Origin: Mucispirillum schaedleri ASF457
GTDB taxonomy: Bacteria; Chrysiogenota; Deferribacteres; Deferribacterales; Mucispirillaceae
NCBI RefSeq assembly: GCF_000487995.2
Contig: NZ_CP097562.1
Span: 62,001-126,000 of the forward strand
DNA length: 64,000 nt
Direction of reading: 5' to 3'
Of the stretch, positions 4,132 through 12,352 are shown piece after piece. The number at the start of each line of letters is the position of its first letter. Position 1 is the stretch's first letter. The notes beneath the pieces are model-generated. The model made no database searches, was not told where the DNA came from, and worked only from the letters and a program-made list of their open reading frames with translations. Both the position numbers and the translations under genes were made by a program.

Positions 4132-4155
4132 ATAACTAAATATGGTTTATAAATT

Positions 4156-4184
4156 CAGCCCGTTTAAGCGGGCTGATATTTTTA
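4156..4184 (+). terminator. rho-independent terminator after the thioesterase gene
   Basis: The inverted repeat CAGCCCG / CGGGCTG with a short TTTAAG loop is followed by ATATTTTTA. It closes the dut-glgP-thioesterase unit. Confidence 0.8.
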
Positions 4185-4290: not shown

Positions 4291-5193
4291 ATGGTATATT
4301 ATACAGAAATTTTAGGAAGATTTGACTTTGTAGAATCAGATATGGAATATATCACATCTATTAAAGAAAATATGCTGCAATATGAAGAATCATTTATAAA
4401 TGATGTATTATCATATCTTCAAAATGATGTATTATTTATGTCAGAATATGGAAATATTATAGATAAATTAAATACAAATAAACTTTCCAGCTGGTATAAA
4501 TCTGTTATTTCTGGAAGACTTAGTGGCTATTTTAGTGAATTTGTAAGTGAATTTAATCTGCAGTATGTTCCAAAAGGTTCTTTTTCAGGAGAGCGAATTG
4601 CAGAGCTATTCAGTTTTATCCGTATATGGTTTCAAAATAAACTGGTAGAAATATGCGAATGTGAATGGGATTATAAAGGAATATTAAATGCATATACAAA
4701 AGTAATAAATGCTGCCATTTATGTTACTATGAACACCTATGTGCCAAGAGATAAATCTACAAGCCACACATCAAAAATGAAAAATACAATACTTGTATGG
4801 TCGGAAAAAGCATCTCTTGTTACTCATTCTATGCTGCTTGTATTTTTAATGATAATGACTTTAGCAGGTGTAGGATTTTTTGTTTGGAGCTTATGGGATT
4901 TAAAAGATGTTGCTCCAGATAAATTATTTGTTACTGCTTTAGGCTCACTGCTTGTTTTATGGGTATTAATAGAACTTATCAACTCAGAAATACAAATGCT
5001 GAAAGGGGATAGGTTTAAGATTAGTATATTTGTTGGTGTAGTATTGATTGCATTTATTCGTGAAGTATTGATTATGACATTAAAACATGATGCAAGTAAT
5101 ACAAACACTATGATACTTATGCTTGGCGGTATTCTTGTGTTAGGTGTTACATACTGGATGCTTGCAAAATCAGAAGAAAGAACAAAAAATTAA
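4291..5193 (+). CDS. globin-sensor-like domain fused to a PsiE-type membrane domain
   Basis: This 300-residue protein has two parts. Residues 1-155 are helical and resemble a globin-coupled-sensor/protoglobin domain; the stretch WYKSVISGRLSGYFSEFV (68-85) lines up with the family's 'HW..LFSGRFDE.Y...V' block. Residues 165-295 hold four hydrophobic segments (about 180-200, 213-231, 246-264, 275-291) with an acidic/arginine pattern (ELINSEIQMLKGDRF, AFIREVLIM) like the phosphate-starvation-inducible PsiE family. By this alignment the proximal heme histidine is replaced by Tyr92, so heme binding is uncertain. It stands alone between two terminators. A membrane sensor of a gas or redox signal is an inference; PsiE function is unknown. 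Confidence 0.65.
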   Translation: MVYYTEILGRFDFVESDMEYITSIKENMLQYEESFINDVLSYLQNDVLFMSEYGNIIDKLNTNKLSSWYKSVISGRLSGYFSEFVSEFNLQYVPKGSFSGERIAELFSFIRIWFQNKLVEICECEWDYKGILNAYTKVINAAIYVTMNTYVPRDKSTSHTSKMKNTILVWSEKASLVTHSMLLVFLMIMTLAGVGFFVWSLWDLKDVAPDKLFVTALGSLLVLWVLIELINSEIQMLKGDRFKISIFVGVVLIAFIREVLIMTLKHDASNTNTMILMLGGILVLGVTYWMLAKSEERTKN

Positions 5194-7610: not shown

Positions 7611-8372
7611 TTATAGAACAGGTTGTATAATTTTACTGTTATCATTATGCAGAATATTGTATTCAATGCCATATATTTCTTTTAAAAGACTGTTTGTTAT
7701 TACATCATCTGTTTTGCCGTTTGCTAATATTTCTCCATTTTTTATTACAAGTGTATTTTCTGCAAACCATAAAATATGGTTAGGGTCATGACTGCATGCA
7801 ATAATAAGCTTGCCAGTTTCTGCAAGTTTTTTTAATATTTTCCATATAGTTATTTGGTTATTAAAATCAAGAGCACTTGTAGGCTCATCAAGTATCATGA
7901 CAGGTGCATTTTGTGCAATAGAGCGTGCAATTAATGTAAGCTGTCTTTGTCCACCGCTTAATGCCGTAACAGGTTTATCAGAAATATCAGCTATATTTAC
8001 CATTTCTATTGCTTTTTCAGCTTCAATGTAATCTTCTTTTTTTAAGCCAAATATACCGCCCATATATGGGGACCTTCCCATTAATATCATTTCTCTAACA
8101 GTAAAAGGAAAGGGTGGTTTATGTTCTTGTGGAACATACGATATTAATTTTGCCAGTTTTGAAGTATTTAATTTTTCATAATCTAAATGATTGATTTTAA
8201 TCTGACTGCCTGTATGCTTTAAAAGACCTAATATACATTTAAAAAAAGTAGTTTTACCACTGCCATTTGGACCCATTAAGCCCCACAGGCTGCCACTTTC
8301 TGCATTAAATGATATATTCTTCAAAATATGGTTATTTCCGTAATAGAAATTTAAGTTTTTTATTTCAAGCAT
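7611..8372 (-). CDS. ABC transporter ATP-binding protein (FecE/BtuD family)
   Basis: Cytoplasmic ATPase of a metal-chelate or oxyanion importer. Walker A is GPNGSGKTTF, the Q-loop is in SYVPQEH, the signature is LSGGQRQL, Walker B is VMILDEPTSALD, and the switch His is in ACSHDPNH. From the ATG at 8372 it is 253 residues. That start is preferred over a GTG three codons earlier because AGGTGA lies 6 nt upstream. It directly follows the permease gene and is the last gene of the FmdE-binding protein-permease-ATPase operon. Confidence 0.92.
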   Translation of the reverse strand: MLEIKNLNFYYGNNHILKNISFNAESGSLWGLMGPNGSGKTTFFKCILGLLKHTGSQIKINHLDYEKLNTSKLAKLISYVPQEHKPPFPFTVREMILMGRSPYMGGIFGLKKEDYIEAEKAIEMVNIADISDKPVTALSGGQRQLTLIARSIAQNAPVMILDEPTSALDFNNQITIWKILKKLAETGKLIIACSHDPNHILWFAENTLVIKNGEILANGKTDDVITNSLLKEIYGIEYNILHNDNSKIIQPVL

Positions 8373-8381
8373 ATATATCAC

Positions 8382-9410
8382 CTAGTTAAACAGTCTGCCG
8401 CTTTTAGCACGAAGTATCCATATTAAAAATGGGGCACCTATTATAGAAGTAATAATACCTATAGGTATTTCTCCTACTGTTAATGTTCTTGCAATAGTAT
8501 CGCATATTAACAGATATACTGCACCACCAAGGCTTGCAATAGGTATAACATATCTGTTATCAGGTCCAGTTAGGAGCCTTGCTGCATGTGGCATCATTAA
8601 CCCAACCCATGCAATAATACCAACACTTGATACACATACTGCTGTCATTAATGTAGCTGTTATTATAAAAATAGTTTTATACTTATCTGGGTTTATGCCT
8701 AATGTTTTAGCATCTTCATCACCTATTGAAAGCAGATTTAGTTTCCATGCAAATACCCATGCTATAATAAAGCATATCAATATTAATATGGCATTTATAT
8801 ATATATCGCTCCATGATGCGTGATATAGTCCACCCATCATCCAAAAAGTAATTTCTCTAAGCTGTGTATCTTCTGATAAGTATTTCATAATGGATACAAG
8901 AGCTGAAAAAATAGAGCCTGTAATTACCCCTGAAAGCACAAGACCTACGGTATTTATTTCTCCTTTCTGTCTTGCAAGCATATATGATGAAAGCACAGCA
9001 ATTAAAGCGAATATAAATGCAGAGATTTGAATGGGTAGAAAAAGTGCTGGAAATATGATTGCAAAAGCTGCACCAAAGCTTGCTCCACTTGATGCGCCAA
9101 GTATAAAAGGCTCTACAAGTGGATTTCTGAAACAGCCTTGATATAATGCACCAGCTGTAGAAAGAGCAAATCCTGCAAGTATAGCCATAATAACACGGGG
9201 CATACGCATATTCCATACAATAGCCATGTCTCTTTTTGATATTTCTTCAAAACTAAAGCCAGTTAGTTTAAAAAGAATAATATTTAATACTGTTTTTGGG
9301 GAAAGTTCTGAATTTCCAGAAATAACAGCAAAAAGTATTGCACACAGCAGTATTATTATAAGCAGTAAAATAATGTTTTTTCTTTTATCTTCTAATATAT
9401 TAAAAATCAT
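8382..9410 (-). CDS. FecCD/BtuC-family ABC transporter permease
   Basis: Inner-membrane permease of 342 residues with about ten hydrophobic segments, the normal length for the FecCD family. Recognisable blocks are RMPRVIMAILAGFALSTAGALYQGCFRNPLVEPFILGASSGA near the N-terminus, and VGLMMPHAARLLTGPDNRYVIP followed by EIPIGIITSIIGAPFLIWIL at the C-terminus. The family imports iron-siderophores, heme, cobalamin and, in the Haemophilus MolBC system, molybdate. It overlaps the end of the binding-protein gene by 11 bp, which indicates coupled translation. Confidence 0.93.
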   Translation of the reverse strand: MIFNILEDKRKNIILLLIIILLCAILFAVISGNSELSPKTVLNIILFKLTGFSFEEISKRDMAIVWNMRMPRVIMAILAGFALSTAGALYQGCFRNPLVEPFILGASSGASFGAAFAIIFPALFLPIQISAFIFALIAVLSSYMLARQKGEINTVGLVLSGVITGSIFSALVSIMKYLSEDTQLREITFWMMGGLYHASWSDIYINAILILICFIIAWVFAWKLNLLSIGDEDAKTLGINPDKYKTIFIITATLMTAVCVSSVGIIAWVGLMMPHAARLLTGPDNRYVIPIASLGGAVYLLICDTIARTLTVGEIPIGIITSIIGAPFLIWILRAKSGRLFN

Positions 9411-10575
9411 TTTCTATTGTCCAGTCAAGCATCTGTTCGCTTAATAATGCTTTTGCTGTTTTATCATCAACATTATATACTTTTTTGTAAAACTTTAATG
9501 CAAACTGATGAATTTTTATATCCTTAAAGATTTCAGGATAGGCAGCTTTTGCAATAATTAATATATCAAGTGGATATTCTACCCTGCGTGAGCAGTTCAT
9601 AGGGGTCCATGGCAGAGCATATACTTGTTTATTTTTCACAGCTTTTAACTGGTTTAGATTTTGATAATATGGTGCTTTTAGTAATTCATTTGCAGGGTGG
9701 TATCCATTTTGTGTAGGTAAAAGTATTATATCTGGGTCTACTGCATAAACCTGCTCACTACTTAAAATGACACGATTACCTTTACCACGATATGCATTTT
9801 TTGCATTAACAATATTTTCTATAATATATGATTCTGGAGTATTTATTCCAGAAACCATACCTGAACCGCCTTGTTTTCTTGCAGCAGAATTTAAGCCAAA
9901 ATATAAAACAGTTGGTTTTTCTTTTATATTTTTAGTTCTATTTCTTACCATTGTTTCTGTTTCATTTAAATATTCATAAAGTTTTAATGCTTTATCTCTT
10001 TGTTTAAACACATCTCCTAAAATACGCATTTCTTCTTTCATAGATGAAAGTTCTGCCTTACCGTAATAAGTAGGTGAGAATAGGACGATTAAAGGAATAT
10101 CCAATGATTCTATCATAGATATTGTTTTTTCAAGCTGAGCAGGGTCACCTCCTCTAAAATAAGAGCCGCCAGACACGGTGCAATCACCAACTCTTAATAT
10201 GATTAACTGGGGGTCTGATTTTGCAAGTGTTTCATAATTTAATATGTCCCCCTGTGGTGAATTAAAGCATGGTATATCATTTAACCATGGGTGCAGATAT
10301 TTCATTGTGTTTACACCTTTTGCAGTGTATGTTTTGCCATCAATAGTTTCATAAGTATATTTATAATCTCTTTTCATACTCCATGAGCCTATGGCAGTTA
10401 CTTTATTTATAACTTCAAGATGTGTCATAACTCCTTCAATAAAGCCATCATCAATTGTTGCAACTCTTTCTAATTTTTCAGGTATTTCTATCTGTTTTCC
10501 ACGCATATCAGTTACGGAATACGCATAACTTTGCACTGCTGCAAAAATAAAGAGTATAATAAAAAATTTTTTCAT
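9400..10575 (-). CDS. ABC transporter periplasmic substrate-binding protein
   Basis: Solute-binding protein with a signal peptide (MKKFFIILFIFAAVQSYAYS, cleavage likely after SYA) and a TroA/FecB-like body: ERVATIDDGFIEGV, DPQLIILRVGDCT, VDPDIILLPTQNGY and a C-terminal YPLDILIIAKAAYPE segment. From this start it is 391 residues, longer than most siderophore-binding proteins. The ATG at 10575 was chosen because AAAGG lies just upstream; an earlier in-frame ATG at 10590 lies inside the FmdE gene. The ligand is unknown. The FmdE neighbour and the precedent of MolA make molybdate or tungstate one possibility; iron, nickel or corrinoids cannot be excluded. Confidence 0.85.
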   Translation of the reverse strand: MKKFFIILFIFAAVQSYAYSVTDMRGKQIEIPEKLERVATIDDGFIEGVMTHLEVINKVTAIGSWSMKRDYKYTYETIDGKTYTAKGVNTMKYLHPWLNDIPCFNSPQGDILNYETLAKSDPQLIILRVGDCTVSGGSYFRGGDPAQLEKTISMIESLDIPLIVLFSPTYYGKAELSSMKEEMRILGDVFKQRDKALKLYEYLNETETMVRNRTKNIKEKPTVLYFGLNSAARKQGGSGMVSGINTPESYIIENIVNAKNAYRGKGNRVILSSEQVYAVDPDIILLPTQNGYHPANELLKAPYYQNLNQLKAVKNKQVYALPWTPMNCSRRVEYPLDILIIAKAAYPEIFKDIKIHQFALKFYKKVYNVDDKTAKALLSEQMLDWTIENDF

Positions 10576-10577
10576 AA

Positions 10578-11087
10578 TTAACCTTTGCATGAATTACAAA
10601 TATATTTATTATTTATAATGGTCACTGCATTTTCAGCAGTTTTTTCTCCACATTCTGAGCAAATATATGAATTATATATTTGTGCTTTTTCAGGAAACAT
10701 GATTTTTACATCTTTAACTGTAAAAAGTTTTTCTTCATCAGTTGATAAAATATATTTCATTTTATCTTCTTTATTATTGAAGTCTTGTATATTATTTAAA
10801 ACAAACCTTGCTTTTTTGCCGTTTTTTCTATTAAAAATATTAAATGCCTGCTTTCCTGTGTATAAAATACGCATAGCACCTGTGCCAGTGGTGGCTTTTA
10901 GTATAACCTGCACTGCATCTACTCCACATGCATCTGTTTCCGCAATACATACTATATCTTCATCATTAATATCATCTTTTATATCAAGATGCTTTAAAGC
11001 AAGAAGACTTACTTTATATCCAATTGCAAGCCCTGGGCATTTATGCCCGTGAAAAACTGCCACTTGTTCCCATAATTTATCTTCCAT
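10578..11087 (-). CDS. FmdE-family protein with C-terminal zinc ribbon
   Basis: A 169-residue protein of the FmdE type, named after a gene next to formylmethanofuran dehydrogenase. The N-terminal domain has FHGHKCPGLAIGYK with the conserved His/Cys set, and ETDACGVDAVQVILKATTGTG. The C-terminus carries a zinc-ribbon-like pair of knuckles, CSECGEKTAEN and CNSCKG. No enzymatic role is established. Such genes often sit beside metal or molybdate importers. It is the first gene of the operon, ends 3 bp before the binding-protein ATG, and has a palindrome in its promoter region. Confidence 0.82.
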   Translation of the reverse strand: MEDKLWEQVAVFHGHKCPGLAIGYKVSLLALKHLDIKDDINDEDIVCIAETDACGVDAVQVILKATTGTGAMRILYTGKQAFNIFNRKNGKKARFVLNNIQDFNNKEDKMKYILSTDEEKLFTVKDVKIMFPEKAQIYNSYICSECGEKTAENAVTIINNKYICNSCKG

Positions 11088-11413: not shown

Positions 11414-12352
11414 ATGAATAAAGTGATAATAACAGAAGAAATGCGATTTCGTCAACGGTTATGTGAGTATGCATTAAAAAAAGGAGCAACGAAAGCAGCC
11501 CGCAAATATCAAGTGAACCGTATGTTTGTATACAGGCATTTAAAGAAATATGATGGAACAGTTCAGAGTTTATCTTTTAAAAGTCGTAGACCAAGAAACA
11601 GTCCAAATAAGCATAGTAAAGAAGAGCTTGATTTAATATTTAACACATATGCCGAGCATGGTTTGTATGGTAATGCGGAGGTATATGTCAGACTTCTAGA
11701 AATTGGTTATAATCGTAGTTTTGGCAGTATGTGTATGCAGATAAGGAAGAAAGGCTTAAAGTCATTAAACAAGTCAAAAAAGAGCTATACAAGATATGAA
11801 CCAATAACAGGTCAGTATATAGGCGACAAGGTTCAGATAGATATAAAATATGTTCCACAGGAATGTATAATGTTTTCCAGCTATGGTAAAAAATATTATC
11901 AGATAACAGCGATAGATGAATACAGCAGAATGAGAGTATTAGAAATAGTAGAAGAAAAAAGCACATTTGAAACAGGTAAGTTTTTAGACGAACTGGAAAG
12001 TAAATTTGGCTTTCCACTAAAAACAATTCAAGTGGATAATGGCTATGAGTTTGTAAATGATAAGGAAGTTACAAACAAGAAAAGCTATTTTGAAGAGACA
12101 GCTGAAAAGAAAGGATATACTATTAAACGAATAAGACCTTATTCACCTTGGCAGAATGGAAAGGTGGAAAGAAGTCATAGAGAGGATGGAAAAATTTTAT
12201 ATGCAAATAATAAATTCTATTCCAAAGATGAATTAATTAAGGCTCTTAAACAGCATGAAGATAGATATAATAATACTGCTAAAACATGCTTAAATTTTAA
12301 ATCTCCATATGAGATTGTTATTGAAAATAAATTATTGCTTGATTTATATTAA
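11414..12352 (+). CDS. DDE transposase (IS481/IS3-like), copy 1
   Basis: A 312-residue transposase. The N-terminal helix-turn-helix region (about 5-60) reads RQRLCEYALKKGATKAARKY, then RMFVYRHLKKYDG. The catalytic rve/integrase core has the three acids: Asp in QIDIKYVP, Asp in IQVDNGYEF, and Glu in SPWQNGKVERSHREDGK. There is no programmed frameshift, unlike most IS3 elements; this single-frame layout is the IS481 pattern. This copy reads PRNSPN where the other two read PRTSPN. Its start is preceded by AGAGGT inside a hairpin arm. The gene is intact and probably active. Confidence 0.93.
   Translation: MNKVIITEEMRFRQRLCEYALKKGATKAARKYQVNRMFVYRHLKKYDGTVQSLSFKSRRPRNSPNKHSKEELDLIFNTYAEHGLYGNAEVYVRLLEIGYNRSFGSMCMQIRKKGLKSLNKSKKSYTRYEPITGQYIGDKVQIDIKYVPQECIMFSSYGKKYYQITAIDEYSRMRVLEIVEEKSTFETGKFLDELESKFGFPLKTIQVDNGYEFVNDKEVTNKKSYFEETAEKKGYTIKRIRPYSPWQNGKVERSHREDGKILYANNKFYSKDELIKALKQHEDRYNNTAKTCLNFKSPYEIVIENKLLLDLY

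Follow-up and report, generated by a model that had tools for sequence, protein, structure and literature searches.

A globin-sensor/PsiE fusion protein of Mucispirillum schaedleri with tyrosine in place of the proximal histidine

Globin-coupled sensors, among them GsGCS of G. sulfurreducens, and the membrane protein PsiE are all known already. In GsGCS, whose sensor domain has been solved as 2W31, the axial histidine at position E11 is His66 (PMC4476040), and our alignment places His93 at the proximal position F8. Non-heme globin sensors have been described as well, namely the N-terminal domain of B. subtilis RsbR, the B. anthracis proteins pXO1-118/pXO2-61 and M. tuberculosis MabR (PMC11617747), and psiE of E. 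coli is under the control of PhoB and cAMP-CRP (PMC4415409). In the part of the literature covered, we found no paper that joins PsiE with bacterial globins, the one match being unrelated, and none that identifies the membrane domain of the GsGCS type as PsiE, although architecture lists in databases may contain this identification.

Here we describe a gene in a window of M. schaedleri DNA (the whole analysed stretch of 64,000 nucleotides) that combines features of these systems. The sensor domain of its product resembles that of GsGCS by profile and fold, and relatives of 2W31 share the globin-PsiE layout and length; however, where GsGCS has His66 and His93, the M. schaedleri protein has Leu65 and Tyr92, and its domain contains no histidine at all. 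In this respect it is akin to RsbR, pXO1-118/pXO2-61 and MabR, which likewise use a globin fold without heme-binding histidine in signalling. While those proteins are soluble or joined to other outputs, the output here would be PsiE, and close homologues of heme type occur in the same protein family. With E. coli PsiE the protein has the C-terminal domain (PF06146) in common, but the classical PsiE lacks a globin domain.

Domain architecture and locus

The open reading frame at 4291..5193 (+ strand), which the earlier note had described from the sequence as a globin-sensor domain fused to PsiE, is a genuine gene: It starts with ATG, encodes a fusion protein of 300 residues and has full-length orthologues in most related genomes, so that the observation is confirmed. 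In the M. schaedleri genome (G000; 2.35 Mb, one contig) it carries the only PsiE domain. Upstream of it lie dut and the genes for an alpha-glucan phosphorylase and a 4HBT thioesterase, and the phosphofructokinase gene lies downstream. A terminator-like hairpin at 4155..4176 (+ strand), 3′ of the thioesterase gene (one found against 0.4 expected in shuffles), suggests that transcription of the fusion gene starts from a promoter of its own and covers this gene alone.

The C-terminal half is PsiE. PF06146 matches residues 178–295 (4822..5175, + strand) with an E-value of 1.6e-23 and a score of 83.7 bits, the cut-off being 23.9, covering profile positions 2–121 of 122 and thereby clearing the gathering cut-off over the full domain. 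Hydropathy predicts four membrane segments, and the positive charges of the loops fit an N-in/C-in topology in a weak positive-inside pattern. In this domain, Trp224, Glu228 and Arg257 do not vary across the 86 homologues compared, which are 48 full-length fusions from other phyla and 38 orthologues from Deferribacterota. Matches of the protein to Vma12 (0.054) and PgsC (0.091) lie under their cut-offs and were rejected.

The N-terminal half (residues 1–155; 4291..4755, + strand) is separated from PsiE by a linker (residues 156–177; 4756..4821, + strand), at whose start model confidence is low. The HMM comparison proposed in the earlier note, successful at once for PsiE, gave a divided answer for this half: The Protoglobin profile PF11563 matches neither the M. 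schaedleri sequence by itself nor anything else in the M. schaedleri genome, but it recognizes 26 of the 38 orthologues (best E 3.5e-17). A profile built from the orthologues matches 2W31 at E 3.7e-18 over positions 1–157; its matches to Lsm2 and VRK1, with E above 0.02, were taken as chance. Moreover, hhalign aligned the globin halves of Mucispirillum's family, taken by themselves, with the His-bearing globin-sensor domains of other phyla at a probability of 91.7 and E 7.6e-7, and this alignment runs end to end over 150 columns without PsiE to steer it. Because the profile of Mucispirillum's family alone has no significant match in the PDB and a phmmer search there with the single sequence returned nothing useful, homology rests on intermediates, on hhalign and on the fold. 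As to the latter, two AlphaFold2 models find 2W31 as their best solved-structure match (Foldseek probability 1.00, target-normalised TM 0.73, E 0.007–0.012), followed almost exclusively by globin sensors and protoglobins; the weaker matches include 9FB1 (MabR) and 3PMC (pXO2-61). Confidence in these models is moderate, with a mean pLDDT of 73.5–74.7 and values below 50 at residues 90–96. Sequence comparison and structure prediction together confirm the predicted globin-sensor domain at residues ~1–155, and with it the proposed fusion. Measured against the definition of a globin-coupled sensor, the protein thus has the N-terminal protoglobin-type fold, recognized through the family although its own sequence fails PF11563, and at its C-terminus a PsiE membrane domain as putative transmitter.

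The neighbourhood of the fusion genes is mostly housekeeping, depends on the group (secA; hypF-hypD; dapA/dapB) and indicates no single function. In two close GsGCS relatives (L148, L149), hypF and hypD precede the fusion gene and a gene for a HAD-type hydrolase follows it (domains scanned in L148). Genes for a response regulator-GGDEF protein and a histidine kinase stand directly upstream in L071 (2497–5110) and L152 (2028–5764), and members of this gene cluster occupy the same place in L073. In L080 and L081 the fusion has an insertion of ~45–50 residues after the helix G region, and its gene is located between those for dihydrodipicolinate synthase and reductase (neighbours scanned in L080). 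Elsewhere in the window, consecutive genes for an FmdE-domain protein, a periplasmic binding protein, a FecCD permease and an ABC ATPase (7611–11087, − strand) form a predicted iron/heme/metal-type importer with an FmdE partner, and an integrase-core (rve) transposase-like gene encodes 312 residues at 11414–12352 (+ strand).

Loss of the proximal histidine

To place F8 we counted from Trp68 (4492..4494, + strand), a residue of helix E that is invariant or near-invariant in the alignments. In L148, which is closely related to 2W31, 24 residues lead from Trp68 to the proximal His92, and the same ungapped distance in M. schaedleri ends at Tyr92 (TAT, 4564..4566, + strand), the residue that also aligns with His93 of 2W31. 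The assignment of tyrosine to the proximal-histidine position in the earlier note therefore holds. Counting back from Arg111 puts Val93 at F8 instead, owing to one extra residue after the F8 region in Mucispirillum's family. The earlier note had allowed that a histidine might yet be found at the true proximal site, but neither register yields one: Residues 1–156 contain no histidine codon, and three congeners likewise have a globin domain without any histidine. Consequently, the protein lacks both the HisF8 of globin-coupled sensors and the bis-His pair E11/F8 of GsGCS, having Leu65 and Tyr92 there, and shares with the non-heme globin sensors a globin fold that lacks a heme-ligating histidine.

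The tyrosine itself is young. All eight congeners have a glutamine codon (CAG/CAA) where M. schaedleri has TAT, and the four sister-genus proteins also carry Gln at F8; by this comparison, Tyr92 is a late change in one species, private to M. schaedleri among Mucispirillum's family. A second Deferribacterota member (L046) acquired Tyr at F8 by a separate change.

The loss of the histidine, on the other hand, is common in the phylum: HisF8 is retained in 46 of 48 homologues from other phyla, that is, in nearly all of them, versus 7 of 38 from Deferribacterota. By sequence, the globin-PsiE fusion is not unique to the latter but is a widespread GsGCS-type architecture in several other phyla, its ancestral histidine mostly intact. 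In the phylum of genome G220, for example, 34 of 247 genomes gave a full-length match, and standalone PsiE-like proteins (open frames of ~153–189 aa) occur there too. Three homologues (L114, L117, L118) are ~56% identical to 2W31 (87–89 of 158 positions) and possess both His(E11) and His(F8); two of them, reread as L148 and L149, lie above the cut-offs for Protoglobin and PsiE, and it is from these ~56%-identical relatives, not from the full-length GsGCS gene, that we infer the GsGCS-PsiE layout. Other globin-sensor proteins of one phylum (L082, L083, L084) retain HisF8 and have C-terminal parts that look EAL-like by eye.

In a tree from which the alignment columns around F8 were omitted, and which an earlier tree from all columns matches in outline, the Deferribacterota form one clade and the position changes between His and non-His seven times, two of these changes being single rows outside the clade. 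HisF8 would accordingly have been lost about five times in Deferribacterota, a count in which parsimony cannot separate losses from regains and the deep forks inside the phylum are weakly supported. In keeping with repeated loss, the residue that replaced it depends on the lineage (Gln, Asn, Leu/Val/Ile, Phe or Tyr). To our knowledge, neither this repeated loss nor the histidine pair described below has been reported before.

Input and output of the sensor

The reading we consider probable is that of a membrane-anchored, GsGCS-type globin-coupled sensor which has lost HisF8, most likely works without heme and regulates PsiE in response to a non-heme ligand or partner. Beyond the absence of histidine, we infer the steps as follows: The globin-fold sensor domain would reside in the cytosol, as the weak positive-inside pattern suggests, connected by the short linker to the four-helix PsiE membrane domain, and would probably dimerize via helices G and H. 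A non-heme ligand or partner would alter the state of the globin fold, and this change would be transmitted to the PsiE domain as effector. A hydrophobic ligand is a possible input. Of the two alternatives in the earlier note, Tyr ligation of heme or its loss, the second is thereby favoured. The sequence would still allow heme binding by other means, be it through Tyr, Cys or Met or by the pocket only, and the heme-free reading has to be weighed with the low model confidence around F8 and the Foldseek E-values of just 0.007–0.012. We rejected the idea that the ligand is missing because heme synthesis was lost: The genome encodes COX1 (heme-copper oxidase) and URO-D (uroporphyrinogen decarboxylase), so the lost HisF8 does not reflect a general loss of heme use. 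A cbb3 oxidase and a catalase have been reported for M. schaedleri (PMC5285517).

The main rival to a ligand-responsive, heme-free sensor is a globin half that persists as a passive remnant, a structural or dimerization domain for PsiE without input of its own, to which we assign a minor share of the probability. It would agree with the repeated loss of the key histidine, with the failure of the Pfam Protoglobin profile to recognize the M. schaedleri domain and with the faster evolution of the globin half (median dN/dS within the genus 0.125 versus 0.053 for the PsiE half). Yet both halves are under purifying selection, the globin half still clearly so, and Arg111 and Lys137 are kept in 38 of 38 Deferribacterota rows, even though structure alone could explain both residues.

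Another proposal concerns the ancestry of the domain. Histidine occupies both positions 115 and 136 in each of the 25 Deferribacterota fusions that lie outside Mucispirillum's family, whatever the residue at F8, whereas of the 48 homologues in other phyla none has His136 and 9 have His115. In the 13 members of Mucispirillum's family both are absent, M. schaedleri having Gln at 115 (4633..4635, + strand) and Thr at 136 (4696..4698, + strand). In this family the fusion gene has also been relocated to the dut-glgP-4HBT locus from the secA locus, secA lying directly downstream in nine sampled representatives outside the family. It is conceivable, though doubtful, that the sensing site of Deferribacterota shifted to this pair on helices G/H, as a metal site, a heme-at-interface site or a dimer site, making HisF8 dispensable, and that the pair was later lost in Mucispirillum's family. 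The independence of the pair from F8 and its rarity elsewhere speak for such a shift, as does PDB entry 4UIQ, itself among the fold matches, whose title names heme at a dimer interface. Against it, the conserved histidines of this putative site could be plain interface contacts; moreover, because the pair is missing from the M. schaedleri protein, the proposal covers its ancestor more than the protein itself. As a tentative sequence of events, a heme gas sensor may have gained the 115/136 pair, which freed HisF8 for its approximately five losses, before Mucispirillum's family lost the pair and changed its input. If true, one gene family would show a stepwise change of the sensed signal with the PsiE output fixed.

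Ligation of heme by Tyr92, which would make the protein a Tyr-ligated globin sensor, is very unlikely: Tyr92 does occupy F8 and L046 independently has Tyr there, but Gln stands at this position in the eight congeners and in the four proteins of the sister genus, most other HisF8-less Deferribacterota lineages show Gln, Asn, Leu, Val, Ile or Phe, none of which is a usual heme ligand, and pLDDT around Tyr92 stays under 50.

For PsiE, an orphan membrane family, the regular fusion to globin sensors in several phyla provides a tie to gas or redox sensing. The functional hint that the earlier note had drawn from the fusion is sound insofar as the fusion is real, but it applies first to the heme-bearing relatives, since the architecture is widespread with its histidine. 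The Deferribacterota in turn offer a natural series, in which HisF8 is present, HisF8 is lost with the second histidine pair kept, or both are lost, with PsiE conserved, and this series can be used for testing the input of the sensor and the role of PsiE.
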